From positions 7,885,851 to 7,949,850 of the forward strand of contig JAKZAN010000006.1 in NCBI GenBank assembly GCA_023053545.1: a DNA stretch of 64,000 nucleotides, given 5' to 3'. A program made the position numbers and the translations under genes. The notes under the pieces are model-generated. The model had not been told where the DNA came from. It made no database searches and saw nothing but the letters and a program-made list of their open reading frames with translations. This DNA comes from Lepidurus packardi (Eukaryota > Arthropoda > Branchiopoda > Notostraca > Triopsidae). Below are positions 23,428-60,900 of the stretch, piece after piece (within the stretch, counting starts at the first letter, position 1; every line of letters starts with the position of its first letter).

Positions 23428-31953
<8,526 letters not shown>

Positions 31954-38146: not shown

Positions 38147-40473
38147 TCAATCCATTTTGATATTCTTGTAAATGTATCGAACGAGTTGTAACGAGGCGAA
38201 AAATGACACCGTACCGAGTGCCAAGAAAAATGCATAGCATGTCAGCAATGTACAGCAGAAAAACTCTATCGTTTGCAAAACACCTGACATGTTCGACCTC
38301 TCGAAGTAGTAAAACAATGAGTAGAGCAACACGAATCCACCAGTCGACCTTGAAACAGCAAAATAGTGTTTAGGACTTGTTGGATTACAAGTAACAAGAC
38401 ACTCACCCTGCTGAAAATACCGACCTCCACCACCATCTGTAATCTTCTGCTGTTAACTGGAAGTATGTTAAAGCGATTGCCACTGCCGCTGTCACAGAGA
38501 GTAGAATGATGAAAACAAGGGCCAAGATACCATACAAGGTGTACTGCTCTCGTCCCCATAATGTCGCAAAAATGTAATACAACTCAACCGAAATGGCACT
38601 ACAAACGTAAAGATTGCAGTGAAAATGTAGTAATCTATATTTATTAGCTACCTAAATGGCAGGAATCCTCCGACTACACAGTATACTGGCCACGACTGGT
38701 ACCAGGCTATGTCTGGAATTTCACGCGGGATATTTTTGGCTCTGCAAGGTGCATTAAACTCGCCTGCACGGTTCTTTCCGAAAATACCTCCAAAAATCGT
38801 CAGCGGATAACCGACTACAAGTACACAAGTTAAATCGTACAGAAGGACTCGCAATAGTTTTGCATTTTTAAGACTTACTGAAGAGCCAGACACAGATTAA
38901 TAACACGATCGTCGAGAAAGGCAAAGCTTGAGTAGAAGTATACGCCAAAGCCACAGAATTTTGGAACGACCATATGACAAAGAACGGAACTAGAACAGAT
39001 CTCGATAAGATAATGGAATACTTCAATGTTTCTATGTACCTGCGAAAAGACAAGACGTAAGATGAACACACTTTACCCAGGCATGTCCGAACCCCATTTG
39101 TTTGTACATTCCACAAGCTACGTAGCCTGCTATAAACGCTGTAAACGCGTACAGAAAACATCCTGCTGTGTTGAGTGAACCATGTCTGTGGACGTTAAAC
39201 CACCCTGTTAACGCCAGTAGCAAGATACCTGCCATCATACACAGCAATTGGCTGCCCACACCTTTGAAAATACAACTTTTCGAAACAACTTTTGGAAATA
39301 ATCTATAAGAAAATTACCTAATACGGCACAAAATAGCATTCTATTGGACGGAAAGCGGAATACGTCTGTGTGAATGATTTTCCATCCATATTCGTCTACT
39401 TCGTCTACGCGCTCCTGATCCACGACATTGTATCGTGCAAAATCGTTTTTCAATACACGCGTCTATTTCAAATTCTGATTTTTCTGGCGTTTTAGAGAAA
39501 GTAAAAGTTACTAGAATGACGAGGACAAAGCCCACCAACAAAAAAACGAGGACAATGGAATTGATGACAGACAACCAATGGATTTCCAAGGTTTTGGGAA
39601 AGAAACTACTGTTTTCATAACGGGTAGCGCGATCTTGGTATTTCGTTCTATGAAAATGTAGTTAAGCTTTGATACTAGACATATTTTGGGGGTTTTACTC
39701 GGTGTGTTTCCATTCGACGCTGTAAGTGTAAGTGACTTCAAAAGGTACTGGCATGTTACTGGTTAACTCTACGCTGTCTCTTGTCGAAACGTTTGCGTTT
39801 ATGACCTAAGAAAGTAGGAGAATTGAGTCAAATTTAAATCGAGATATTTAGACTTACTCGATGATCATTGTACTCGAAGGTGAAATGATAATGCGTCCAC
39901 AAGAAGGTTCGATGAACATGAGGGATTAAAGGACCTTCTTCTAACTGGCCCACGAAGTTCTTTATAGAGATGTCATCCACGACAAACTCAAAGTAATACA
40001 AGTCTTCAATTGCTTCTTGCATTTGAGCTAACTCTTTCACCCCCATACTTAAAGAGCACAGTCTGGCCTTTGCAACATCATCCTTATAACTAATTTTGTA
40101 CATGCTCTTTGCCATTCTATCGCCATCCAAGACCTCTCCGAGGCTCATGCTACGATGCTCTATCTAAAGAAACGAAAATAATAATGCTTGATGCTCGAGG
40201 GAAAAGCTCCAAATAAACTTCTCAAGAAAAATAAATTTACCTTTTCTGGTCTGCACACTGGCATGGAATAGTAATGATATGTTTCATGGGGATTGTAATA
40301 CGGTCCAACCTTGTTAACGTATAAAGGAACCTAAAAAAAAATCAATTAGAGAACCAGCGTACAAAAATGGCAACAATGAAAAAGAGGCTTACTTCTTCAT
40401 GGTCTTTATAACTTTCAGTCCACACTTGGGAAAGCTGTAAGGATAATAGGAAGAACAGCGAGGTTTTCGCCAT
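38147..40473 (-). CDS. TM9SF1: Transmembrane 9 superfamily member 1 (nonaspanin)
   Basis: The ATG at 40473 begins a signal peptide ([18 protein letters not shown]). The stop is at 38147. The luminal domain carries [37 protein letters not shown] and [19 protein letters not shown]. These fit TM9SF1 better than TM9SF2-4: the human TM9SF1 stretch [20 protein letters not shown] is almost the same. [16 protein letters not shown] and the first membrane helix follow, then [20 protein letters not shown] and eight further hydrophobic helices (for example [35 protein letters not shown]). The tail ends IYKNIKMD, matching the KxD-type COPI-binding Golgi retention signal of the family. TM9SF proteins act in endosome/Golgi membranes and, for TM9SF1, autophagy. 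Exon structure was not fully resolved. Confidence 0.95.
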
Positions 40474-42121: not shown

Positions 42122-42132
42122 GTTCCCACGTG
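42122..42132 (-). promoter_or_regulatory. Su(H)/CSL site overlapping a CACGTG box
   Basis: The sequence GTTCCCACGTG contains the inverse of the CSL consensus (CGTGGGAAC) overlapping CACGTG, the box bound by Hes/Hey repressors. Another CACGTG lies 30 bases downstream at 42161. The match is by consensus only. Confidence 0.55.
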
Positions 42133-42648
42133 TACTGCCACACGCATGGGTTGGTAAATACACGTGCCACGTTTGGCTGGGCTTTAAGTCTGCGCTAATA
42201 CTCAGCGGACTGAGCGGAAGCAAACACATGAGAATCAGAATAGAATTAGTACAAGTTTTTGTGGCTGACGACAAGCACTTCTAAACTAAACGAGATTTTG
42301 TTACGCATTCGTCTCTAAGAGGCAGTTCTCTGGTAGTTCTTATGCAATCCCAGGTCTTTTCCTGTTTTAAGTAGGTACTATAAGGAAAAAAAGTTTCCCA
42401 CCATAGAAATCAGAAATCGCAACCACAATAATGTAAAATCCAACGTTAATAATCTTCATGACTAGTCAAGGTGATACTAATGATCCTTCTGGGTTACAAG
42501 TCAACTCTAATACTCTGGGAACTGGAAAATTAGTAAAGCATTTGGAGGTTTATGTTTATAATTGGGTTCCCAAATATTAATATTGCAACTCTATCTCAAT
42601 CTTACTTATTCTAACCGTAATCGCACAATACAATACGAAAAAAGACAG

Positions 42649-42683
42649 TGTGGGAACCTCGGTCATCTCCCATTTCCCACGTG
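42649..42683. promoter_or_regulatory. Su(H) paired site (SPS) with overlapping CACGTG box
   Basis: TGTGGGAA (42649-42656) and TTCCCACG (42674-42681) face each other with a 17-bp spacer. This is the head-to-head arrangement used by Notch-dimer target enhancers such as HES1 (16-bp spacer when counted the same way). The second site overlaps CACGTG at 42678-42683. A proneural-type E box, GCACCTGC, lies 132 bases away at 42815. A TATA-like tract lies at 42750. The arrangement matches the SPS-plus-proneural code of fly E(spl) genes. Confidence 0.7.
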
Positions 42684-42748
42684 CTAGCCACGCGACTGAT
42701 AAAAGCATTTATAGCATGCGAGATAAAGATGGGGTGAACCCAAGCCTG

Positions 42749-42762
42749 CCTATATATATATG
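42749..42762. promoter_or_regulatory. TATA-like tract downstream of the SPS
   Basis: CTATATATATATG lies about 70 bases from the paired Su(H) site. It is nearly palindromic, so direction cannot be decided. If used rightwards it would place a transcript start near 42780, ahead of the 45-codon ORF. It could also be a simple AT tract. Confidence 0.35.
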
Positions 42763-42909
42763 CCAAAAAGGACCCGAATGGGTTTTTGAATCTCCTTTGC
42801 CTTGCACACAACACGCACCTGCCGCCCATTGACACTAGGCAGTGCTCGGCAGCCCCTTTAAAGCTTCAGAAGCTGACCGTGGGAGCCTGTTGATATATCA
42901 GAAAGCAAA

Positions 42910-43047
42910 ATGGATCGATACAGGGGCTACTTAAAATCAAACAGTCCAAGAAGCACGTGTGCCGTCTCATTTGATCGCGAAAATTGCTTTCGAATAGAGC
43001 AAAACACATTATGTTACATTCAACGCGCTTACGGAACCCGCAGATGA
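42910..43047 (+). CDS. Candidate 45-residue small ORF downstream of the SPS
   Basis: ATG at 42910 to TGA at 43045, encoding a basic small protein that starts MDRYRGYLKSNSPRSTC. It lies about 230 bases to the right of the paired Su(H) site and 150 bases after a TATA-like tract. An AATAAA occurs near 43580. No homology is recognised, and an ORF this short is expected by chance, so the context is the only support. Confidence 0.2.
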   Translation: MDRYRGYLKSNSPRSTCAVSFDRENCFRIEQNTLCYIQRAYGTRR

Positions 43048-43469: not shown

Positions 43470-44078
43470 GTCCATGGAGCGATCACCAAGTTTGTTACTG
43501 TACTTCAGAATAGAGAAAATGAAGTAATTGAAAAGTGCTGACATTCCACGGAGCTAAAAAGTGGTGTTGTATATCAATCGTGTAAATAAAATCGCTTTTA
43601 AATCAAACAATGCAGTGGGTCTGAAACACTTGCTAGTCGTTTCCTTGGAAGATTGTAATTAAAGTCTTGGCAGGAGAAGTCTTCTTTACACCCCCCACTG
43701 GGGTAATGTCAGTCGAGCAAACTATGCGGGAGGTCATTAAAAGAAAGAATGTTTGTTATCCAACCCCAAATTAGAACATGCGGCACCCCGTTATACTGCA
43801 CTGCATATTACACGCTTTGAGTGACGTCGATTTGTCTCATGGTTCCCCTTTTGGGGAGTTTTCTTCTCACGGTAAGGGAGGTATTGTCTATGCTAGTGAC
43901 GTCACAATAAAAGCTATATCTGTATATACTAATAGTGCAAAGAGGGAGGGGAGCTTGATGTACAAGAAAGTATAAAGTACCCCCTCGCTTGCTCATCGAG
44001 TCAAACGCAAAAGACTCTCCCTCCGCTAACCTACCCTAAACCCATGACCGCCACCACCCTCTCGTCAAGGCGTATCTC

Positions 44079-44086
44079 CGTGGGAA
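44079..44086 (+). promoter_or_regulatory. Su(H)/CSL consensus site
   Basis: CGTGGGAA followed by A, about 650 bases beyond the Hey stop codon. It has no head-to-head partner at the SPS distance. The call is by consensus only and belongs to the cluster described around Hey. Confidence 0.5.
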
Positions 44087-44736
44087 ACACGTCTCTCCCA
44101 ACATCACACACATACACGCATACAAACACCCTCCTTATTCTTGGCTATTTCGATGTTTCGCCTAAGGCTTATTTACTCCCTTATTTCGCAAATAAACCGA
44201 TTAGATTAACAGGTTGATCCACGTAAATATACTATTAGCAGCAAGCTGAGAAATTAATGTTAAAACGCGAGAAATTTCTTCACAAAAACGATATTATTTT
44301 TCGTTGCTTTTCAAGTTGAGATCACACGAGATCGCACACACACACTTATTTACAAAATCCGAGCAAATGGTCCCTCAGTTTATCAATCAGGTTTTCGATA
44401 CGATATGACGATTCTACAGGATGCAAATATCGATCAAGTACATGTTAAACCAAAGTACGTCTAAAAAACGAAGCAAACCCAGGTCTTCAAAAACTGAGCA
44501 TGGACTAGCATCAAACATTACACCCATGGTCCAATATTTATTTATTTTTCAATCTGACTTCCCCGTAAGTACGACTGGGAAGGTCTGGAACGTTATTTAC
44601 AGTAATTTCTGACTCGTGTGGAAGATTTTCAAAACGTCTTCCTTATTTGCAATTCGGTTATCTCCCTTATTCCGCTTCAATACACTTATGACAGACAGGA
44701 CAGGTTGTGGGGCCCTAAGCCCTTTTTTGTAAACTT

Positions 44737-47342
44737 TTAATAAGCTAACTCGGTACCCCACGGCCGATAAGGTTTCCCAGGGCTGGGAGCATATGAGTTG
44801 GGCGCTAACTGAAACGGATGTGTTTGCAAGTTCACGTGGTATTGGGAATTGCTGGAAACAGCCGGGTTGCCGTTCGAAATCGTGGCGGTAGCAGGCATAG
44901 ATGCTTGGTGATGATGGGGATGCGTTTGATGTAACCGATTCGAAGAGCTTGAGCAACCTGGGTTATTTAAGGCATCCATATTGGTTAATTGACTTGAATG
45001 GGAATAGCCGCCCATGGCGAGCGATGAAGACGGATCATAGAAACCACTGCTAGTGGGCGTGGACTGAGGGTTGGTGTTATGAGGCAGCATGTGTGGGTGT
45101 GAAGGCGGCGGTGCCAAGCCCATGGAATTCGCAGGTGGAGGTGGATACGGATTGGAAACATGCGGAGGAAACGCCCATGTATTAGTCGCTTGCTTGTTGG
45201 CCAATTCTCGTTGAGCAGCAAAACACTGCAAATGAGACATGAGTCGTAGGCGCAACGGATCTTGGATATCCATGCCTTCCACTGTAACCATGTAACGAGC
45301 AACTTCCGCGGCGCATTCCCGGAATCCGATACTGTGGTAATCCATCGCAAACTTATGGGGTTCATATGTCAACGCATCCAATCCTATTCAGGAAAAAAGC
45401 ATTCAAAAATTAGTTACCGATCAAATCAAGAAGGAATGAATCAATAAAACAACTCATATTAAGGCTCTCGTATACAATAACTTTCGCAAAACCCCCAAAC
45501 ACGTTCTCCGGATTTAGTGACAAATATGTTTAATGTATCCCGCTGTCAAAAGTTGACAATACAATGTCATTTCGTACAATGAATTTTGTTTATTCCAGCT
45601 AACGGAGTGAAAGAAAGCGCAAGTTTTAACGATTGTCATCAACGAAAGTTGATGACAATCGTTACTTGTCACTCTTTTCCGGAGAACGTTTTGTAACAAT
45701 ATAACACAAGAGTGTCATTATTGACCTTCAGGTTTTTAATCGGATAACCTGTTGCGCAAAACCATAACAAACATCAGCGCCATCTGTGACTCTTTCGCAT
45801 CAAAAAGCTAACGTATGTGCGAGCCTTAAATTGTACTAAAATAAAGACTGAAATCGGTCAAGAAAGTTCAGATAATTATCTCTATTGCTCGGATGACCTA
45901 TATGGAAATACACAGAAAGAAGGGACTACAGTAGTTTGAAACCTTGCTGGCGTGGGACAAGACTCCTGGGAGCTTTGGGCGAGGAGCGCAGAAGGGTCAT
46001 GTCTAATTCTTGCTATCAACCTGTTGCTGTTGTATTAGGTGGAAGCTTTCCGGGCTTACCTCAACTAAGCTCATTTATCAACCCTTGGGAACCCACCTTG
46101 AGTTTTGGGCTTCCCCAAAACCCGCTAGTCGAGTTCTCACCTGTCGGCTTTTTTGTTTTTTTAAACGACCAAAATCACGGTGGTCCATCTAGAATTGCTT
46201 CGTTGCTGCCTAACATTTTCCCACAACCACAATCTAAGAACCCCAAAGTCGTTGCGAGCGCGATGTGACACATTTAACCAAGCGTAAATGGGCTGAGATT
46301 GGCTAAGAAAAAAATAAAAACAAAGACACTGCAACAAGACCACGTAAAAGGAGACTAAAGGCGATCCGAAACGGGAAAAGGGGGTCAAAATGCAGTGTGG
46401 GAATGTCCGTTTCTCATTTTGGGTAATGAAAGCTTATAGTTTCTGCCCCATGCAAGACCCTGCTGCAAATGGATTCAAAAGCTTCAAGTGTCACTTGAGA
46501 AGTCGTGTCCACCTCCCCTTTTACGTCTTAAGACAATTTGCATGTCTATATAAAATTCTCCAGTGTCCATTTACGCTGCAGAGTTTTCCCACGCATTCCA
46601 GAAAAAAAGGTCGTCATACCAACATGTATGCACATAAAAATGTCCAAAGCCGCAGTAAATACCTAATACCGAAATGGATTTAAACTAGCCCAGAAAACCA
46701 GAAAAGCTTCAAGGTAAAATTACGGTATTAAGGAACTTCCAGAATGTCAGTGTGGGAAAAATCTGTCGTCAGTACACCACAGCGCAGTACTTGGAAACAG
46801 GGAGGAGTTGGAATGCTTTGGGCCGAAGGAATGGTTGTTATGTGTGAATCGTCTGTCAATCATCGTAACCTGAGGGGCTTTCCCACGGCTTTTTCTCAAT
46901 AATTACCAGATGCCATGATTAGGCAAAAAAACCATATACTGTGAAGGAAGACATTGACGATTCTTACCTTTGGAATGCAGAGTCTTTAAATGATCCACTG
47001 TTAACTGCAAAATTTCCGCCTTTTCCAATTTGGCTGATCCTTGCTTCTCGAATGCAGCCGGGACTAGTCGTCGTAATTCGGACAAACTGTTGTTAATTCG
47101 GTCTCGTCTACGTTTCTCGATTATTCCGCGGCGACGTTTCCTCGTCAATCCACCGCCGCCTCCACCACAACTTTCTACATCTCCACCGGGTGACGAGCAT
47201 CTATAGCGAGAAAAGTACATAGTACTTTAGGGAAAAGTTCAGATCGAAAAAAAAATTTCGAAGAATATTCGAAGACTTACTCTTTGGATTGTTCGTCGGA
47301 GAAGACGTCGTCACAATCGCTTTCACTTAAGGCGCGTTTCAT
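44737..47342 (-). CDS. Hey: Hey, Hairy/E(spl)-related bHLH-Orange repressor with YRPW motif
   Basis: Three coding exons. The first runs 47281-47342 (ATG at 47342, [18 protein letters not shown]). The second, near 46968-47202, encodes a glycine-rich linker and the bHLH. The third runs from about 45381 to the stop at 44737. The basic region [20 protein letters not shown] has the glycine that marks Hey instead of the proline of Hairy. The helix-loop-helix ([34 protein letters not shown]) is nearly identical to human HEY1. The Orange domain ([20 protein letters not shown]) follows. The tail ends [12 protein letters not shown], matching the YRPW-TEIGAF signature. The protein is a nuclear repressor acting downstream of Notch. 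Several Su(H) sites lie in the second intron and in both flanks. Confidence 0.97.
45621..45668. repeat. Perfect 16-bp inverted repeat with GAAA loop
   Basis: aacgattgtcatcaac (45628-45643), loop gaaa (45644-45647) and the exact reverse complement (45648-45663). Five further complementary bases (caagt / acttg) flank it, with a three-base bulge. It lies in the second Hey intron. Confidence 0.9.
46396..46403 (+). promoter_or_regulatory. Su(H)/CSL core site in Hey intron 2
   Basis: TGTGGGAA with T at the ninth position, so a core but not a full nine-base consensus match. It is part of the intronic group with 46586, 46751 and 46880. Confidence 0.4.
46586..46593 (-). promoter_or_regulatory. Su(H)/CSL consensus site in Hey intron 2
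   Basis: TTTCCCACG read on the plus strand, a full consensus match (CGTGGGAAA) on the minus strand. One of four sites within 500 bases. Confidence 0.5.
46751..46758 (+). promoter_or_regulatory. Su(H)/CSL consensus site in Hey intron 2
   Basis: TGTGGGAA followed by A, a full consensus match about 200 bases from the bHLH exon. Confidence 0.5.
46880..46887 (-). promoter_or_regulatory. Su(H)/CSL consensus site in Hey intron 2
   Basis: The context gggctttcccacg is repeated almost exactly at 47951-47964 upstream of the gene. It is a full consensus match on the minus strand, just downstream of the bHLH exon. Confidence 0.5.
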
Positions 47343-48929
47343 CTTCCACATTTGCATAAATAAACTCGAATGCTTCTCAACAAGCACAGCAATGTATACA
47401 GTTTCGCGAAAAAACTTTCGTTTGTTTGGTGTAAGGATATCCTGTCCGGTGTTTCTTCACAGGTTAAGTTGGAAGGAAATCACACTTCCTCTTGGACCTT
47501 CGGGTTTGAGACAAACACGCGGCAGACCTTCTGTTGGACACACTCCGGAACTTCTCGCCACTTGCAACAATTCACGACTGCCTTCCGCCCTGACACACGC
47601 AGGAGGTCTAATCTAAACGTGTCGTACCTACTCCCATACACACGACCACCGAACGTCCTGTTCTTGTCCCCCATTTAGGCTTCCTAGGCGTTGCAATTGG
47701 TTCTTCGAGCCTGCCAGGCGTGGCGCTTGAGCCAATGCTCGTATAGCAAGGCCCAAACCATGGGAATAAGTCCCTCCTCTGAGGGCCTATTCCGTAACTG
47801 AGCGTACGGTCGGCCACACGAGCGGCACACCGCACTCCCCGTGGCCGACACACAACAGGGCAAAAATTAGAAAATAAGAGATCGTGGGATGCGAAACTGG
47901 GAACGGAGAAGGGGAGCAACAACTCTACACCGCGTGTGACAGCACTTCCATGGGCTTTCCCACGATGAGCCGCACGGCACGACCAGCGCCACAGAAGAGG
48001 GGAGCTATATCCCGCCTCTTGATTTTCACTCATCCCCATCATACTCCCGTTTCATTGAGAAAAACTTCAAGGATGCCTTTCGGTTTTTAATGCCCTTTTA
48101 CCTTACGAACCCCTAAATAAATCTCTTCTCAATCCAACCTCAAGCCTACCTGCTCCATATTACCTGTTTCGTTGACCAAACGTGTGCCGAGCACAAGGCA
48201 TTGTTATGCCCACGAAGGGGGGTTCTTAACCAAACTAGACAAATCTTGATTTCCTAATGTTGCTTTAAAAAAATAAAAATAAAGAAAACCTCAATGAGCT
48301 CAGCCAAAGGAGCTAGAATTCTCACGTGACTTTTAACATGGTTTGGAAGTACAGAAAGACGTGCTTGCCTATCTCCTTTCAAGATTTGCTCTATGAATCA
48401 GGGAAAACAAAGTTTTGTGTTGGTTCTTTATGTTTTCTCACCGAAAACCAAAGAAGTCTAGCCGAGCTCATCGATGCTTGATGCACAATTCCCATCCCAG
48501 GGGTTCTTCTGTGAAGTAGAAAATGAGTTTCCCATATCCAATGGATATCTACGACTGTCTCTTTTTGTACCTGACAAGCGTGACAGCTCGTCGAAGAACA
48601 ATCGAAAGAAATGAAAGCGATTTCTGTTTATTTGCTCGTTGGGAAGAGCGTTGCATGGTACAAACTTAACGATAGGAGAGACTGTTGTTTTAGGTTCGAT
48701 CTTGTTCGCTACATAGGGAATATTACATGCTCATGGTAATACTTGGAAGAAAATGATGCCTAAGGGTTTCAGTTTAACGACAGGATAGGTAACTGTCAAT
48801 CTTCTGTGAATCGTGCTGTATTACACAAAAGAGCATGCCATATTTCAAAGAACACAACTGAGGATAGGTTAACTAAGGGTGTTCTAGCAAAAAAGGTCCC
48901 ATAAGGTTAAAAATAATTATTGCGCATAA
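47343..48929. other. Hey upstream region
   Basis: This is 1.6 kb between the Hey start codon and the HDDC2 stop codon. It must hold the Hey promoter and 5' leader. The part at 47440-48040 is GC-richer with long but unrecognised open frames. It contains one consensus Su(H) site (47957-47964) and an ATTCTCACGTGA element near 48317. No protein gene was supported. Confidence 0.45.
47957..47964 (-). promoter_or_regulatory. Su(H)/CSL consensus site upstream of Hey
   Basis: TTCCCACG within gggctttcccacgatgag, about 600 bases upstream of the Hey start codon and the only upstream full match that I found. Confidence 0.5.
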
Positions 48930-49805
48930 TTAAGACTTGATCCCTTGATCTTCCAACCGCTTGGCCTTCAATTCAGCCACCCATTGTTTGACCTGACGAT
49001 AAATAAGGCATGTTAGTGCACAATATTGACAACTGGTGATTGAGAACAGTTACTTTAGGATGTTTAAACCCGTCTTTCACGGCGTCAAAAAATTCTTGCA
49101 AGTAACCAGGTTTTTCGAATTTAGTTTCATACTCAAAAGCTTGGACTATCATGTCAAACCTGTCTAGATCTTTAACTAGGTTTGACTCAGGCGTAATCTG
49201 AGCTTCATATTCCTACTTAGGCGAAGTGACATGAGTGGTACAGGACATGGATATGGATTTTAGATTGTCTAATTGATTATCTAGCTTACATGGTATAAAG
49301 TTAAAAGCTCCTCTTTGGTGTGTATGGGAACATACGACGCTATTTTATCCATTGCTTCACTTTCTTGCCTATGTTTGTCTTCCACTGAAACGCCACAATG
49401 TGGCGTAATATCCCCCACAATAGCCTCAGCCATATCATGAACCAAAGCCATTTTTAGGCATCTTTAAAGCCCAAACCCACAGAGGGGAAAAAGCACAGAA
49501 CAAACAATAGCACGTCAGAAATAAAGAAAGAGACCAACTGTATCAAGAGTTTCTTACCTTTGAATATTAACTCCGTCTTTTTCATTCAATAGAAAAGTAA
49601 GGCAGCCCATTCGATACATATGACTAGCAACTGATTCTGGCTCCAAAACATCTCGAATTACCCATCCCGTCCTTTTGAGATGCTAAAAGAAAGAAAATAG
49701 AATGGCAATAAAAATATTGCCTACCAAGTTATACAATTAATAAAGGCAGCTTACTTTTAAATCACCTAAAAATTTACAGTACATAAGTACATCTTCACTG
49801 GACAT
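48930..49805 (-). CDS. HDDC2: HD domain-containing protein 2 (5'-deoxynucleotidase-like)
   Basis: ATG at 49805 (MSSEDVLMYCKFLGDLK) and TAA at 48930, several short exons. The first helix continues LKRTGWVIRDVLEPESVASH, supplying the first metal-binding His, then MYRMGCLTFLLNEKDGVN. The HD signature is CLKMALVHDMAEAIVGDITP. The C-terminal half has ESEAMDKIASYVP, LLTLYHEYEAQITPES, LVKDLDRFDMIVQAFEYE and FEKPGYLQEFFDAV. The order and spacing match human HDDC2 and the bacterial YfbR family, metal-dependent phosphohydrolases that remove the 5' phosphate from deoxynucleoside monophosphates. All the HD-motif residues that I can see are intact. A tRNA-Trp gene on the same strand lies upstream, and GCLM reads away from it. 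An AGATGGCG element lies 105 bases upstream of the ATG. Confidence 0.93.
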
Positions 49806-51931: not shown

Positions 51932-54900
51932 CTATTTCTCATCGCGCTTTTCTTGGGTCACAGGTCGCAGGTAATGCAAAACAGGCGCACTGTTCGAAAA
52001 GGAAATAGTGGACGTCAGCATGGGAGCTGGCATTTCTGTCGAATTATTCGCTAAGGGCAAGGAAGGTAAGGTAATGGTAGGCAATGGTGTTTGTTGCTGC
52101 TGTTGTTGACCTTGGTTTTGACTCGCCATAAGAGACATGTAATTTTCGGGCGAGAGAATAGTTTGAGTGCCCCCTCCCTGATTGGAACCTAACACCACAC
52201 CTTCGATTTTCGGATTCCCACCTCCTTTGGGCGACGACACGATAAAGGAGACTGGTCCTGATAAGGCGGAGTGATTAAACCGTAACGCATTAGTAGATAA
52301 GCTGGTCGTCGTCACCGAAGTCTGTGATGACGTCACCACGGCTGAGGAATTGGCATTGCTCACTACCACACCTGTTGGCAGAGTTACTTTGGCTGGAATT
52401 GGACGTTGCTCGCTCAAGCTACCCGCTGTGGTGGTGCTGACAGAGGCCGGAGCGATGACGCTGTAGCCCAAATCTGGTCTCGAAGGCGGAATCGAAGGCT
52501 TGGGTGCAATTTTCTTGCCAGGAGCAGTCCCTGACCCCGTTTTATCTCCTTTGCCAGCCCGACCATTGGCTTGAGTTTGCAATTGACGTGCTCTCTATTA
52601 AAAAAATCATTTAAAAAACATTAAAAAAATGAGGTTTTAAGTTCAAGAATCATTCAAAACCATGAATAATTACTTCTTTGGCGCGGAGGAGCTTCTGCTT
52701 CTTGAGTTCCAAGCAAAGACGATCTTTACAGACACGGTGTGAACTAGTGCTCTTGCAGGCGAAGCACTGGCCGCACGAAACGATGTTCAAACAACCTGCA
52801 CACTCGCCACAACGTTTACGACGCGGTCGTGCACTTACAGGGGCCTTAGCCTTCAGATTGTACGAGGATCGATCAGGCGATGATTTGGAGGAACGAGGTT
52901 CTTCTTCTTCGTCTTCGCTGGCGTCTAACCGGAGCCCTGCGTCGCTACTGTCATCAGGATCTGGACTGGTTCCTCGCTTATTTCCGTAGAGTCTAACTTT
53001 CTTGCGTTGGGCTGCTCTTCTAGCTGCAGGGATCTGAAGAACATTGGAAAAGAGGTTACGATCAGTATTTAAAGCTGCATATTATATGTTTTACTTGTAC
53101 ATAATGGGCTAGTTTGCTGCCAGGTTTGTCGAGAGACACGCCCTCATTACTGCTGCTGCCTGAAGAAGAGCTGGCTCGACTCGGTCTCTCACGGGTTGTT
53201 CCAGTCATGCTGACCGGGCCTTGCGCTAGACTCGCATTGGCACAAGTCGCCATGTGTTTCGCCCAATGTTCTTGTTGGCAAGGATAATCGCAATAGGCGG
53301 TGTTCCAACAACAATAAAAGACGGCTTCCTTGCCACATTCGGCACACCATTGCCTGCTTTTCGCGTCTTCTATAGCTTGCTTCTTCTCTGCTTCGAATTG
53401 ACGTCGTAACTCGTTGAGCTGTCTTGTGTTTTCAGCTTCCACGTTGGTTCGCACTTCCTTCACCAATGCTTCTAAAAGGTTATTACGATCAGACATCCCA
53501 TAAACCAAAGAGTAACTGCTTTTACAGGAGTTGCAAGCAATGAAAGAAAAACACTACAATATTTGCATTATAAATCACTGGATACTTAAGCGGTAAAACA
53601 TTACATTGCTGAAGAAATTATAAAAAGGAAAAACTAATTAAATAAATGGAAAAATTTGAAAAAGTTTGGGAAATTTTAAATTATTTCGAATTTTTTTTCG
53701 AAAATTTCTGAAAATTTTGAACAAATTTGACTCCGTTAAGCGTTACTAACTATGTTACCGTTTCTAAAACGCTAAAGTCAAAGGAAGAAGAATAGAAACA
53801 TACCTGCCGATCTTCTAGCTTCCGCCAACTCTTTCTCTCGACTCCACTTGATCCTCTCGAGTTCTAGCCTAGCTTGAACTAGATTCGCTTCCACGCTACC
53901 ACTAGCAGCTGCTTCCTGGAGCAAAGATTCCAAACTACTCCGTATCATCTCGGCAATCTGCAACCAAAATGTGAAAAAATCTTTTCAATACATTTCATCA
54001 TAATTAAATTAATGGACTAGTAATCGATTTAGAAACTTAAAACTAAACAAACACCAATTTAAAGAAATAGTGAACTAAACAAAAATGAAGAAAACTTCAA
54101 TTACAAAATAAGGATCAATATATTCATTAGACCACTCGAACTATTAACAGTAATACTATTAAATACTATATTTAAATAGTCTAATTAAATATTGTAATTA
54201 AACTCTAATTAAACATTATTTAAATTAGATTAACAGTTTTGTTTGAACATTTTAAACATTTTTTATTTTTATTTTGTTACATATTTTATTATATTTATTA
54301 TTTTTTTTTTAAAAAACAGATGAACAGTTTTGCCTTAAATTATGTTAACTAGTGAACTAAAATGTAAGAAAATAACAACAATTGCATAAATAAGGATCAA
54401 GACACTAATGAAAATGTTCAAACTATTAACAGTAATATTATTAATTATTAAAATTTAATTAACCAAAATAATAAGAATTATAATAAAAACAAATAATGAT
54501 AAATTATTAACCTAATTTTAATTGGATTAACACTAATCATTTTAAGTATATTACTTGAGCTAATTCCAAAAATATTACTAAAAAAAATCAAGAATTATGC
54601 AAGAAAAGAAATGAAGTATACGAGAATTACCTGTTGTGATTTGGAATGCAAGAAAGCGGAAATGGGACCCGCTTCATTGGCCGTTAAGGCAAGTCTCGGT
54701 GCGGCGGATGTGTTGGTACTCGTCGTGGTATTAGTCGACGCAGTCACGCCCACGCTCATGCCCATTCCGGCCCCATTACTCTGAATGGCCCCGAGTGGTC
54801 TCGTCATCAAAAAGTACCCTCCTCCAGCGTTAACATATTCCACTCCCGAGCCTGAAGTGAACGTTTTCAGCGTTCCTTGGCTTGTAGACGTGCCTGAGAC

Positions 54901-57900
54901 CAAGCCAATCGCCGGCTGGGGCGTCGGTCCTGTTCCTTGTTCTCCAAACGGATTAAAATACTGCGGAAGTTGCTGTTGCGCCACTGGTTTGACCGAAATG
55001 GAGGGCAATTTGCCACTTCCGCTATTGTTGAGGCCGTTGGAAGGAACGTTCTTGCATAACGGGGGGAGAGGCATCTTCGCTTGGTTAGCATTCGATTTGT
55101 GAGCTTGAGCCAAGGCCGGGGGAGCTTTGGGCGACTTGGCCATCGATTTCCTGGCTTTCGCTGGCGTTTTAGTGCTCTTGCCGCCACCAGAGGCAGCCAC
55201 CGGCGAATCAATCTCGATCACCCTCGATGACGTGTCCTCCGCATTGTTATTGAGCGAGACTTTAGGAGCCAAGTTCTGCCCCGTTCTACTGCCCTTGTCG
55301 GTCAACTGCAGCTGTTTTTTGGGCACCAAAGTAATGCTGACGGTTTCTTCGACGTTATTCCGCGCGTCCACTTCTGCCTCCAAGTTCACGCCCTTCTCCG
55401 GAGACGAATTGGACGATTTCAGCTTGTCGTCGTGGTTCAACAACGTTATGGTAATCGTAGGGTCTAGGTACATCGCTGGATTGACTTCATCGTCATCTTC
55501 CATCATGGAAGGTGAATGCGGGGCCGATTTCAAGTCATCTCTGCCTTCGTCGAGCGTTCTATTCACCTCGACCTCCTCATCGTTGGTCGACACATCTTGC
55601 AAATTCTCATTTCCTTCATCCACGTCCATCGGCTCTGCTTTAATGATCACGGGCATCGGCACCGGGTTTCGTGCGGCTTTAGGACTTTCGGCAGACTTTA
55701 GCGGCAAAACAACCGCTTTGGTATTGGTGGTCGTGGTAACGCTCGTTGTGGTCTTAGTCACGTCGGGCTTGAGCACAATCGTCGGGGGTGGGGAGCAATT
55801 TAACGCTCCAGAGCGAATCGTTTTCGCGATGTAAACCTTCAAAGGTTTCTTGGGATTCGATTCTCTTACTTTCTGGTCAAACTCCGCTTTGGATAACTGG
55901 ACGAAACGTGGTTGGTTGGTGGGGTTATTCTTGTTACGAATGACCATTCGAGTGAAGGTAGGACGTTTATTGCTCGCAGCCGCATTCTCTACGGCTGAAC
56001 GTGGCGCTAAATGAAGCATTGAGAAGAATTTGTTGGAGTCTTGGGAAGGAGAAGGTGTGGTTTCGGTCGCTTTTTCCTCTCCGTTTTCTTCAGTTCGAGG
56101 TACAACTTCAGAGGCTGGACGCTCTTTATTCTCTTCTGGTGTTGCTGTGGATGATGATATTAGCTTAGAATCTCCTTGTTCGGTGGGTTTCTCCGTTTTT
56201 TCGGGAGCGATCGTCTTTTCGTCCTTTTTCACTTCACTTTTTTCTTGGGATTCAGCAATTTTTTCAGTAATTTTCGACTTCTTGGTAACGGGTGGTGTTT
56301 GGAGTACTGATTGCGGCGTAGGATGACTCACTCGACGGGGTTTATACTGCAGTAGGGGATGAAAAGGAAAGAAATTAGAGGTTACTATTGTTTTTATTGA
56401 ATAATATGACTGAAAATTCGCTTTTTTAAATACTAAGATTGGCGTATTGGCATAAGCCTGTTGCCATAAATTCGCTTTAATCTGATAAAGAGGATCGAAA
56501 CATCGAAGGAAGGGGGACAATAGAGTTACTTTTGTTTCTATAGTACTTTTTTATCCTTATAGTATTATTGGTATTATTGTTTTTATTTGTAGAACTATTG
56601 TTTATTTTTTTTAATTATTTTTTATTGTTCTATAATATTAATGAAAATTTGGTTTAATCTGGCAAAGATGAAGGAAGGAATGAAGGAAAGGGGAAATGCG
56701 GACAGGGCTTACGTGCGGGACCATGAGACGTAATTGCTCTTCTTCTTTGCTGGGGTTATAGGGCGTTTTGTTGGGGGCGTAGTTGAACTGTCCAAACATC
56801 TCCGTCAAGCGCTTGACATGCAATTCAATTTCGGCTAAAGAGGACTCAAAATTGGATTTCCTTTTGTTCTTGTTGCTTGCCGGTACCTCTCTGCTGTACA
56901 AGTAACAGTCTCTGACTGGAACCCATGCTCTATGGACCCAGACAGTGCTCATTAGCATAGACAATTTTAGAATTTAAGAAAAATACAGTCAAATCAATAC
57001 CTATCATGGGCGCCAAAGAATCGGACATCAACATTGCCTTCCTTATTGGCTTTTACGGCTTTGGCTGGCCAGTATGGATAACCTTTAAGCTTGGCCCAAA
57101 TCAACAAATGTGGCCGGCTCTAAATTAAAAAAGAAAAAAATGCGAATTAATTTTCAGAGTAAAATGTAATAACTCACGCAAGGTTCAAGAAACCATGTGT
57201 CGCGTTTGGTGTGCGCGTGTTCATAGCAGTCCTGGCACGTGTCAATTTCGCTCATTTCATGGCGGCAGACTTTCATCAAGGATTTGGCCACAGACGTCAG
57301 CTTGGATTGATCTATAACAGCCCAAGCGGCAGAGCAACGTAAACATCATTAACTTTCACTTTAGCGCACTGGATTGCGAAAAAAAATTACTTTTCTTACA
57401 AGAATTGAATATGATGCAATTATGCAAAATCCATCGAAAGTCGGCCAAAAACCCGCGTGTGGAAGCATAAGACTGGCTCATAATCTTGCTTTCCAGATGC
57501 GACAAATCCATAGGATTTACAATGTACTGCCCGTAGTTCAACACTTCTTCGGGATCCACTTCATGCATAAACGGTTCGCACTATACGGAATAAGAAAAAA
57601 GTGAGTTGAGCGAGTTTCAACACTCACTGTAATGCAAACTTGATCTGGTTTACTTACATCCGTAACGCTCCTTACTCGCTGCAAGGCGTACAGCAGCATC
57701 CGGTTCAAATCTTCAAGCTTGGGACCTTTAATCGTCCTTGCCCTATCAACAACATCGGTTATAACATTAAGAAGCCGAATTTGTCAAGCCAAATTGCTTC
57801 ATTATTTAAAAACAAAATCAGTAGAAAATGGATTTCAATCAGGGCAAATTAGCTTCTAACCCATTTAGAAATAGAGTAGATGCCGCTTACTGTAATCACC

Positions 57901-60900
57901 TTTGCCAAGTCAATATTGATTCTATTAAGCGGAGATTCAAATAACAGAAAATCGGAAATATGTAATAGAATGCGTTCATTAATCGGCGCGTGAAATGGAC
58001 TGGCTTGTTTAAATCAAAGAAACAAAGCAGCGTCTACTTTTTGATACTTTCTCACATGTTTCTCTTTTCTAGTTTCATTAGACCTACTATTGTTTGTTTC
58101 GCAACGATTTTTCAACAATTTTGATAGAGATGACTGAGGAATTCTTCGTTTAACGGCCGCTTCCCTTTGTCGAAAATCTCAACTTAACTTGTCGTAAGCT
58201 TCAATGAGCCGCAACTTCTCTTTTCCATTTAAATCAACTCTTTTCTTGTTCTTCGGCATTTTTATATAACAACACGTCTAACACACAACTAACAGCGTCT
58301 TTGAAGCCTACTCCTTCGCTTGGGCAGTGTTTTCAACACTATATTCCTTCTAAATTTCCCAGTCAGTTAAAAGAACTGGCCACTCAATTGAATAACCTGC
58401 TCATTCAATTGAGTTTAGAAGGGATTTCTCCCCAAGCGTAGTAGCAGGCTGGAAATTACAGGATGGGTCAAACCGACGTAAAAGCAATGTCACTGGCTAA
58501 TGTGCAAAGTCCATGTAGCAATCACTACTGTAGTTTCGTTACTGTGCATGTGAAGATTATTTTTAAATTGATTCTAACATTCGAAAGTGTGATTCTAATA
58601 ACCGATTAAAATGCTATGAATTTTACCATGTTGAATTGGTCCTTCAAAATTTGATTTCATAAAGCGGCTGATTCTACTAACCAGTGATCACAATAAGCGG
58701 CACCTACTGTAATTAAAAATTTAATTACCTATTTAATAAATCGGAAAGAATTGAACTCTTAATTATTGATCTTGATTATGGAAATAATGATAACAGAGAG
58801 GAAATTATATATAAATTAAGACAATGATAATATAATCTTACAACTTTTCGGCATTTTTGACAGAGGTGCATTCCGGGCAAACCCAGCCATGTAAACTCAA
58901 CGCGGCTTGTTGAACACATCGCTGATGATACGACCTCGGACACAAGGCACACGCCAACACCTGGCCATCCGTATGGCACGCCCAACAGTACGTGTCATGG
59001 ACTGTGATAAGCTTCTTAGATTCATCCTTCTCCTGTTCTCCTTCCGTAACGGGAGTTGGCGGGGACAGAAAATGGCTTTCAGGTAACGCGGGTAAGTGCA
59101 ACGCTTCCAGGTTCTTGGTCTGAAAACGGTAATAACAGTTTAAGCTTCATTAACAATAGTTACTTTAAAAATCTGACGTACATTCAACGCTGCGACTGCG
59201 AGTTTGCGGCTGCGTTTATCAGCCGGTTGAGCTGTCGAGTTGTCCTCTTCCTCTTCTACATTCTCAGCTTTCCTTTTTAAGCTCGACTGTTCACTTTTCT
59301 CGCCTTCCTCCATGCTCTTCTCGTCCAAACTTGTTTTCCCAGGCGATGAATGACTCTTCTGCCCCACCACCCTATAATTTGTTGATTAAAAATTGGGTGC
59401 TAGTTCGAAATAAGTTACGGATACACGAAAGTCAATACTTTTGTTTCGTGCCCAGCTCGGAGCTGTTTTGGAAGCGAGTTGCACGTCCTGCCAGCGAAGC
59501 TGTTGCAGTGGGCGTGTCCTTGCTCTCCTCCGCCCCAGTGCGCGTGCTCGATATCGCTCGACTGGAGCGCCTCACTCTAAAAAATAAAAAAAAGTAAACT
59601 CATAAAAACGTCAAATCACCGGAGCGGAAAATGGGGAAACATCTAAAAATTATTTTGTAAAAATGATAAAAAATTACAAAATAATTCAAATCCAAAAGTT
59701 TGCCCCATTTTTGTTGGTTCATGCCCGCCCACAAACTACTTTCCAGCACTAGCTCCCCACGTTTTCTTCTTTGGCTGTTCCAAGTTTTGAGGTTCTTTTC
59801 TTACTGCTCTCTCGCGCGTTCGTCCCTACTATCTCCCGCTATCAATTTCCTCGTGTCCCCCTTCTCTTCTTTGGGGCAGCTGCTCGCTCTCCACGATACG
59901 ACGCGAGGCCACGCCTACTCCACCCTGGTTGTCACTTGTCAGCCATTTTACACAAGGCCGCTTAGGAACGCGCGCTGACTGCGCAACGCGAAGCCACGCC
60001 ATTAAAAAGATACGGACGCAGACAGAAAGAGAGAGCGAGCGAGACCGGTCGATGGTCGATGCCCCAAGGCTCAAGCACTGCCACTCCTAAAACGTCTAAC
60101 CATAGCGAGCAGCAGCGCCTAAACAGCCGCCATTTGGACCGTTCTTACACGCTCGCTCTCTCTCTCTCCTTTCTCTCTTCTAATTGCCAAAACCTCCCCT
60201 TCTTTGAAATCGCCTTAGCTTTAAAAGGGCCTGCGATTGGTCCACTCTGTCTTTTAATTCTTCTCTGACTGAACTCTTTTCGTTCTTGAAAGAACAAAGC
60301 AAACAAATTTTTTGGGCAAATTTTGCTTCCAGATTGTTTAAAATAGCTACTAGGTTACTTGAAGATTCACAGCTACTACGTGCGGGTGTATCAAAGCTCG
60401 AAAGTTGTTTAGATTTTCGATTTCTTTCGTTTGTACTATTTATTTGTTTGTTATTTATTTATACATTACCTGGGAAGTGGAGATGAATCTGTAACAGGGT
60501 TTAAGCTAGCAGATGGTTTTTTACTAGCTTCTTCATCCATTTCAGAGGGCTGGATGACATCTTTTTGATCCTTTTGTGGAGATACTTCATCTGGTTGAAG
60601 CAATTCGCCTTCATTGACTTCTTTTGCAGGTTCTAGGGATCCTGGCAGGTTTGATTCGTCCATTGTATCCTCTTCCAGTTGACTTTCGTCTTCTTCATCG
60701 TTTTCTTCGACTTCCTCTTCTTCTTGCAGACGTGTAGCTTTTGGGTTACTAGAGGTTTCTTCCGTAGCAACAATATATTCATCAGAAGCAGTCCTTCTCG
60801 AGTCTTGATTCACTGTTTCTTTTGCCCCTTTCGAGTCTTGGTGGCTGTCTGAGTCACGAGGCGGCTTGGAATCTGCAGAAACAGTGTCGCACTCTTTATC

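Follow-up and report, generated by a model that had tools for sequence, protein, structure and literature searches.

A head-to-head pair of CSL sites within a CSL-site cluster at the Hey gene of Lepidurus packardi: a candidate 3' Notch-responsive module

Introduction

Clusters of CSL/Su(H) sites at Hes and Hey genes are expected from existing knowledge, and at the Drosophila E(spl) genes a Su(H) paired site (SPS) is joined to a proneural A site in the SPS+A code. Proneural E boxes follow the consensus RCAGSTG in its loose form and GCAGSTGK in its stricter form. In the part of the source available to us, an SPS is defined by two sites lying head to head with a spacer of 15–17 bp (PMC8494340).

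In Drosophila, Hey is among the known targets of Notch. The accessible part of the fly study places YGTGRGAA sites upstream of the gene, at −2235, −1947 and −1922, and four others in intron 2, and describes these two groups (HeyUP and HeyIN2) as Notch-dependent, redundant shadow enhancers; its authors conclude that Hey has no other Notch-responsive enhancer than these two, and neither is downstream of the gene (PMC11353301). In human cells, HEY1 binds CACGTG and is itself lowered 3–6-fold by HEY expression, and many HEY-bound regions are without a CACGTG box, according to the available portion of that report (PMC3355086). For crustaceans, including Daphnia, no Hey enhancer was found in the search listings of the literature on Notch cis-regulation. 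Here we analyse a window of 64,000 nucleotides from the notostracan L. packardi, the whole stretch of DNA presented above, in which two facing CSL sites lie beside a Hey gene.

Results and discussion

The Hey locus and its paired CSL site

The Hey gene was identified from its bHLH exon (PF00010, E 3.6e-16) and its Orange domain (PF07527, E 9.4e-14), both found in Pfam, together with a C-terminal sequence of 10 residues; its splice sites were set by eye, from GT/AG and the reading frame. Intron 2, of 1.58 kb, precedes the Orange-domain exon. The next gene on the Hey strand encodes an EMP70/TM9SF protein, and on the other side of Hey there are ORF pieces ending near 48930, which by eye we take to be HDDC2. 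The features of the locus are the following.

38868..40473, minus strand: EMP70/TM9SF gene (Pfam), with its ATG at 40473; the span excludes the unmapped 3' end
42123..42132, minus strand: third CSL site of the 3' group, within the 10-mer TTCCCACGTG, identical to 42674–42683
42127..42959: four CACGTG boxes (42127, 42161, 42678, 42954) and one CACGCG (42689)
42649..42656, plus strand: TGTGGGAA, matching the CSL/Su(H) consensus and forming the left half of the pair
42657..42673: spacer of the pair, 17 nt
42674..42681, minus strand: CSL/Su(H) consensus site CGTGGGAA (TTCCCACG when read on the plus strand), right half of the pair
42678..42683: CACGTG, by motif match a class B E box of the kind published as HEY-bound, sharing bases with the right CSL site
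42815..42822: E box, GCACCTGC on the plus strand and GCAGGTGC on the minus strand, the latter matching RCAGSTG and not GCAGSTGK
43864..44086: two more single CSL sites 3' of Hey (43864 minus, 44079 plus)
44737..47342, minus strand: Hey gene, from ATG to stop, with coding exons 47342–47281, 47200–46968 and 45383–44737
46218..46887: group of five CSL sites within intron 2 of Hey (46218 minus, 46396 plus, 46586 minus, 46751 plus, 46880 minus)
47957..48328, minus strand: two CSL sites 5' of the Hey start codon (47957 and 48319), that at 48319 overlapping a CACGTG

The two facing consensus sites with a 17-bp spacer that the first-pass annotation had reported were recovered with the same letters and coordinates, as TGTGGGAA-N17-TTCCCACG, head to head over 42649–42681, and the overlap that it had described between the second site and CACGTG was borne out. 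It had also placed Hey about 2.1 kb away, in agreement with the 2.06 kb that we measured between the pair and the Hey stop, which ends at 44737. AATAAA words occur on the minus strand at 44537 and 44541, so the pair is likely outside the Hey 3' UTR, and with the TM9SF ATG 2.18 kb further downstream on the minus strand it stands about midway between the two genes. Three ORFs tested in 41.5–43.3 kb gave no Pfam match, and 38–50 kb of the window gave no Rfam match, on which grounds we rejected the idea that the ORFs around the pair belong to a hidden gene. A collection of genome contigs yielded no Hey relative, and the exact pair sequence had no match in a collection of viral contigs.

Like the paired sites of Drosophila E(spl) and mammalian Hes1, the pair consists of two consensus CSL sites (YGTGRGAA) arranged head to head within the 15–17 bp range, and adjoins a gene of the bHLH-Orange type of Notch target. 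In contrast to the known examples, its spacer is 17 bp rather than the preferred 16, it lies 3' of the gene instead of in the promoter, and it is known from sequence. The Notch-dimer enhancer architecture claimed in the first-pass annotation is therefore upheld as regards orientation and spacing, which are inside the published SPS range, with the reservation that 17 bp is the upper edge of that range.

A dense cluster of CSL sites at Hey

The genome searched comprises 108,557,554 bases in 344 contigs and contains 12131 YGTGRGAA sites, or 1.1 per 10 kb (10222 for the reversed-pattern control), and the expected CSL count for the Hey locus was derived from this number. Fourteen sites are present in the window, 12 of them within the Hey locus, between 42123 and 48326. 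Counted between the neighbouring genes (40.5–48.9 kb), bounds that were drawn after the sites had been seen though they coincide with gene boundaries, these 12 compare with 0.94 expected (Poisson P about 4e-10), a clustering above the genome background such as a direct Notch target should display. The excess is found both in intron 2 (5 sites versus 0.18 expected, P about 1e-6) and in the 4.2-kb interval between Hey and TM9SF (5 versus 0.47, P about 1e-4), whereas the remainder of the window has 2 sites versus 6.2 expected. When the window was shuffled 300 times with its dinucleotides preserved, no shuffle had more than 7 sites in 6.3 kb, compared with the 12 observed. Taken as a whole, the window has a smaller excess (14 versus 7.9), and 14 sites were attained in 3 of 100 shuffles. 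A shared repeat is disfavoured as the cause of the cluster, as among the CSL sites in the stretch checked (42.0–43.1 kb) the 10-mer TTCCCACGTG is the only one that recurs.

Statistically, then, the pair is of moderate significance and the CSL cluster that contains it of very high significance. Its presentation in the first-pass annotation as the main feature holds insofar as the pair is real, but it is a single element of a cluster that extends over the locus, and the TM9SF side had been overlooked.

The layout of the Drosophila gene is matched in part. Intron 2 carries a CSL cluster in both animals, with five sites here and four in the fly, the introns being compared by position. Both genes also have a separate group of three sites, two of which are 25 nt apart from start to start (42649/42674 here, −1947/−1922 in the fly), a likeness of distance. 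In the fly the second group lies about 2 kb upstream, in the 3' UTR of the neighbouring gene, whereas the group of three in L. packardi follows the Hey stop at a distance of 2.06 kb and the upstream region has two single sites. As a separate observation, successive intron-2 sites are on opposite strands (−, +, −, +, −), with 178, 190, 165 and 129 bp from one to the next, near nucleosome spacing.

A putative 3' Notch-responsive module of Hey

The genome has a CSL gene (PF09271, in two adjacent stretches), and one Notch gene was found through its NODP domain. The ankyrin region of this Notch aligns with that of human NOTCH1 (6py8) with an E value of 7e-121, and its RNR motif is intact. Human R1984 is described as a residue of the NICD dimer in the part of the source at hand (PMC7685452), and its predicted equivalent is an arginine of the RNR motif, placed there by our own count.

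With a dense CSL cluster across the Hey locus, the pair is probably one of several Notch-driven switches of Hey. We favour, with modest confidence, the explanation that it belongs to a Notch-responsive module 3' of Hey, at about 42.1–43.0 kb. Hey would then have at least two or three CSL groups, those in intron 2 and upstream probably serving it as well. The CSL cluster, the presence of CSL and Notch genes, the fly layout and the near-SPS pairs of contig C21 (below) speak for this module. In cells without Notch signalling, CSL and co-repressors would occupy the sites and keep the module silent, and in cells with active Notch, NICD and Mastermind would join CSL. Two such complexes could then occupy the pair facing each other and dimerise via their ankyrin domains, which would give strong Hey transcription, after which Hey protein or another bHLH protein might compete for the CACGTG over the right CSL site. 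The feedback is the least secure of these proposed steps. That the pair depends on NICD dimers is plausible, and we are less sure of it than of the 3' module itself.

Several points argue against the module, namely that the pair taken alone is near the number expected by chance genome-wide, that it is about equally near TM9SF, and that its spacer is at the edge of dimer tolerance. Two further points against it are that no strict SPS occurs in 11 other stretches at bHLH-Orange (bHLH-O) genes, and that the fly study concludes against any Notch-responsive Hey enhancer other than its two, neither of them downstream. The TMEM132 setting of the other exact N17 pair and the seven head-to-head loci at which the ORFs searched gave no Notch-circuit gene (both below) count on the same side. 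We regard the module as a well-founded candidate enhancer of a known type and as no surprise at this gene. If it works as proposed, the logic of the fly Hey gene, with redundant Notch modules of which one is in intron 2, would extend to a distant animal.

E boxes and possible Hey feedback

A CACGYG box, as an element of Hey autorepression would carry, is present in several copies around the pair. Among 300 dinucleotide shuffles of the window, a single one reached four CACGTG in 850 bp, and over the whole window the word is found 12 times versus 8.4 expected, a number reached by 12 of 100 shuffles. At the Hey locus the form CACGTGRGAA accounts for three CSL sites out of 12 (42123, 42674 and 48319), compared with 268 of 12131 CSL sites (2.2%) genome-wide, where the reversed-pattern control of the decamer gives 217.

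Nearly as probable as not, in our estimate, is a reading in which these boxes are used mainly by another bHLH-type factor (e.g. USF, Myc or clock proteins) and Hey does not repress itself. CACGTG is common to many bHLH families, and CACGTGGGAA arises in part because CA stands in front of the CSL consensus CGTGGGAA. Against this, the box lies on CSL sites of the locus more often than the genome-wide share quoted above, and in the human study, as far as its available part goes, HEY1 both binds CACGTG and is itself repressed (PMC3355086), which makes Hey feedback reasonable. The locus resembles human HEY1 in having CACGTG in the Hey gene's own flanking DNA, and differs in that the box overlaps a CSL site and that the feedback is read from the DNA sequence. 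Hey autorepression, with CACGTG as its basis, is plausible and is the weakest step of the model. Among the titles listed in the literature for CACGTGGGAA, a CSL site overlapping CACGTG, none was about Notch. Should the 3' module work as proposed, the overlapping CSL and Hey boxes would be a place to test whether a target can shut itself off by displacing CSL.

The proneural E box that the first-pass annotation had placed within 150 bases is there, as GCACCTGC, but fits the loose consensus alone: in 42.0–44.8 kb there is one RCAGSTG, at 42816, and no GCAGSTGK. The arrangement resembles the SPS+A of Drosophila E(spl) in having a proneural-type E box about 130 bp from the pair, and departs from it in that the box is of the loose type and fails the strict form.

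A more far-reaching reading joins these observations with the fly comparison. Hey would have kept a Notch input of two modules since its common ancestor with the fly, the paired module lying downstream here instead of upstream, and the right half-site would be a dual-use switch for CSL and Hey feedback. We hold this combination to be decidedly unlikely; if it were true, the activator and Hey's own product would exclude each other at the right half-site.

Spacing and frequency of paired sites

Under independence, about 0.34 head-to-head pairs are expected in the genome per spacer length. The N17 pair occurs in two places, at the Hey locus and at C3:9480366 (L012), and not at all in the control; the second lies between exons of a TMEM132 gene, for which we know of no role as a Notch target. 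Over spacers of 15–17 bp the same 2 pairs compare with 1.0 expected, so there is no general excess of strict SPS in the genome, and 3 head-to-tail pairs exist at the same spacing. With spacers of 5–35 bp, 12 head-to-head places were found (10.5 expected), together with 8 tail-to-tail, two of which share one sequence, and 28 head-to-tail, the reversed-pattern controls being 5, 8 and 34, respectively. The 12 head-to-head spacers are 9, 11, 14, 14, 14, 17, 17, 18, 18, 21, 32 and 35 bp, with none at 15 or 16. Spacers of 14–18 bp, a range picked after the data had been seen, make up 7 of the 12 head-to-head pairs, 0 of the 8 tail-to-tail and 3 of the 28 head-to-tail.

These numbers bear on the reading that the enhancer is the same but the pair acts as two independent monomer CSL sites, the 17-bp spacing giving little or no cooperation between NICD dimers, which we judge only slightly less probable than its opposite. 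In the accessible part of the mammalian reporter study, all mouse NICDs prefer 16 bp, N2ICD is without cooperation at 17 bp, and N1ICD is somewhat tolerant of 17 bp and keeps some cooperation there (PMC7685452), so that this source can be cited on both sides. Synthetic fly SPS reporters with 17-bp flanks were active in the embryo, with some ectopic activity, and in the midgut, but gave no activity in larval discs, where non-paired sites bearing such flanks were likewise inactive, as stated in the available part of that report (PMC8494340). The missing genome-wide enrichment of strict pairs fits monomers, and the ten other consensus sites of the locus could already give a Notch response. On the other hand, the orientation and spacing agree with the SPS definition, and when 12 sites were placed at random in 8.4 kb, 1.1% of the simulated loci had a head-to-head pair at N15–17 (4.6% in any orientation); the preponderance of head-to-head pairs at N14–18 also speaks for paired action, within the limits of a post hoc range.

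It is unlikely, in our view, that two of the many real CSL sites of the locus face each other by coincidence and that the 3' stretch has no enhancer function of its own. About one N15–17 pair is expected per genome and two exist, and the pair was rejected as a genome-wide rarity. Within a stretch of 64 kb, at least one such pair has a chance of about 6e-4, among 300 dinucleotide-preserving shuffles of the window a single one contained such a pair, and a search for the pair with up to 3 mismatches returned a single place in the window versus 0.37 matches expected. The density of CSL sites between Hey and TM9SF and their co-clustering with the four CACGTG boxes, both rare by chance as given above, argue against coincidence.

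Finally, we consider it very unlikely that TM9SF or some unannotated transcript, and not Hey, is the target of the element, as the distance to the TM9SF ATG (about that to the Hey stop) and the TATA-like repeats at 42751–42760 might suggest, since the CSL cluster spans the Hey locus and ends short of both neighbours, Hey is a Notch target in the fly, TM9SF has to our knowledge no such role, and neither the three ORFs tested in 41.5–43.3 kb (Pfam) nor 38–50 kb (Rfam) gave a match. The preferred explanation remains the 3' Notch-responsive module of Hey.

Other CSL pairs and bHLH-O genes in the genome

A Hairy_orange family search returned seven places in the genome, Hey included. The other six were covered by 11 stretches of 10 kb (L001–L011), which contain 0, 9, 6, 3, 2, 4, 0, 1, 3, 3 and 1 CSL sites, respectively. 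This makes 32 sites compared with about 12 for average DNA, with a clear excess only at the bHLH-O pair of contig C21 (L002 and L003). No strict SPS (YGTGDGAA halves, N13–19) was present in the 11 stretches. Two near-SPS with one mismatch in one half were found in L002 (N16 and N15), by the bHLH-O genes of C21, and none in 20 block shuffles, while the other ten stretches had no near-SPS (one mismatch allowed, N15–17).

Nine other head-to-head loci were examined (two were left out) by comparing 1–4 ORFs each with Pfam, and seven of them gave no Notch-circuit gene among these ORFs. The remaining two lie near a Notch-ligand gene and near an achaete-scute-like gene. At the first (L016:4411–5002, C5:636710–637301), five CSL sites occur in 0.6 kb, including a head-to-head pair with an 18-bp spacer and CACGTGAGAA. 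An ORF with the MNNL domain of Notch ligands is about 0.6 kb away, and this group is a candidate Notch-responsive element of a Delta/Serrate-type gene. At the second (L019:4994–5018, C3:6391793–6391817), a head-to-head pair with a 9-bp spacer lies 1.5 kb downstream of a bHLH ORF, which by eye we take to be achaete-scute-like. In addition, a head-to-tail pair at C5:6562531–6562556, one half of which is CACGTGGGAA, lies about 7 kb from exons of the genome's CSL gene, and CSL might possibly regulate itself through it.

Two further observations concern other parts of the window. A long (TA)n tract at 27800–28050 lies inside or beside a plus-strand gene and appears as an I-Y repeat in the ORF list. 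On the minus strand, 52000–59200 holds a row of chromatin-reader-like exons, namely a CXXC (below the cut-off), a ZMYND8-type MYND with a coiled coil, and a PHD.
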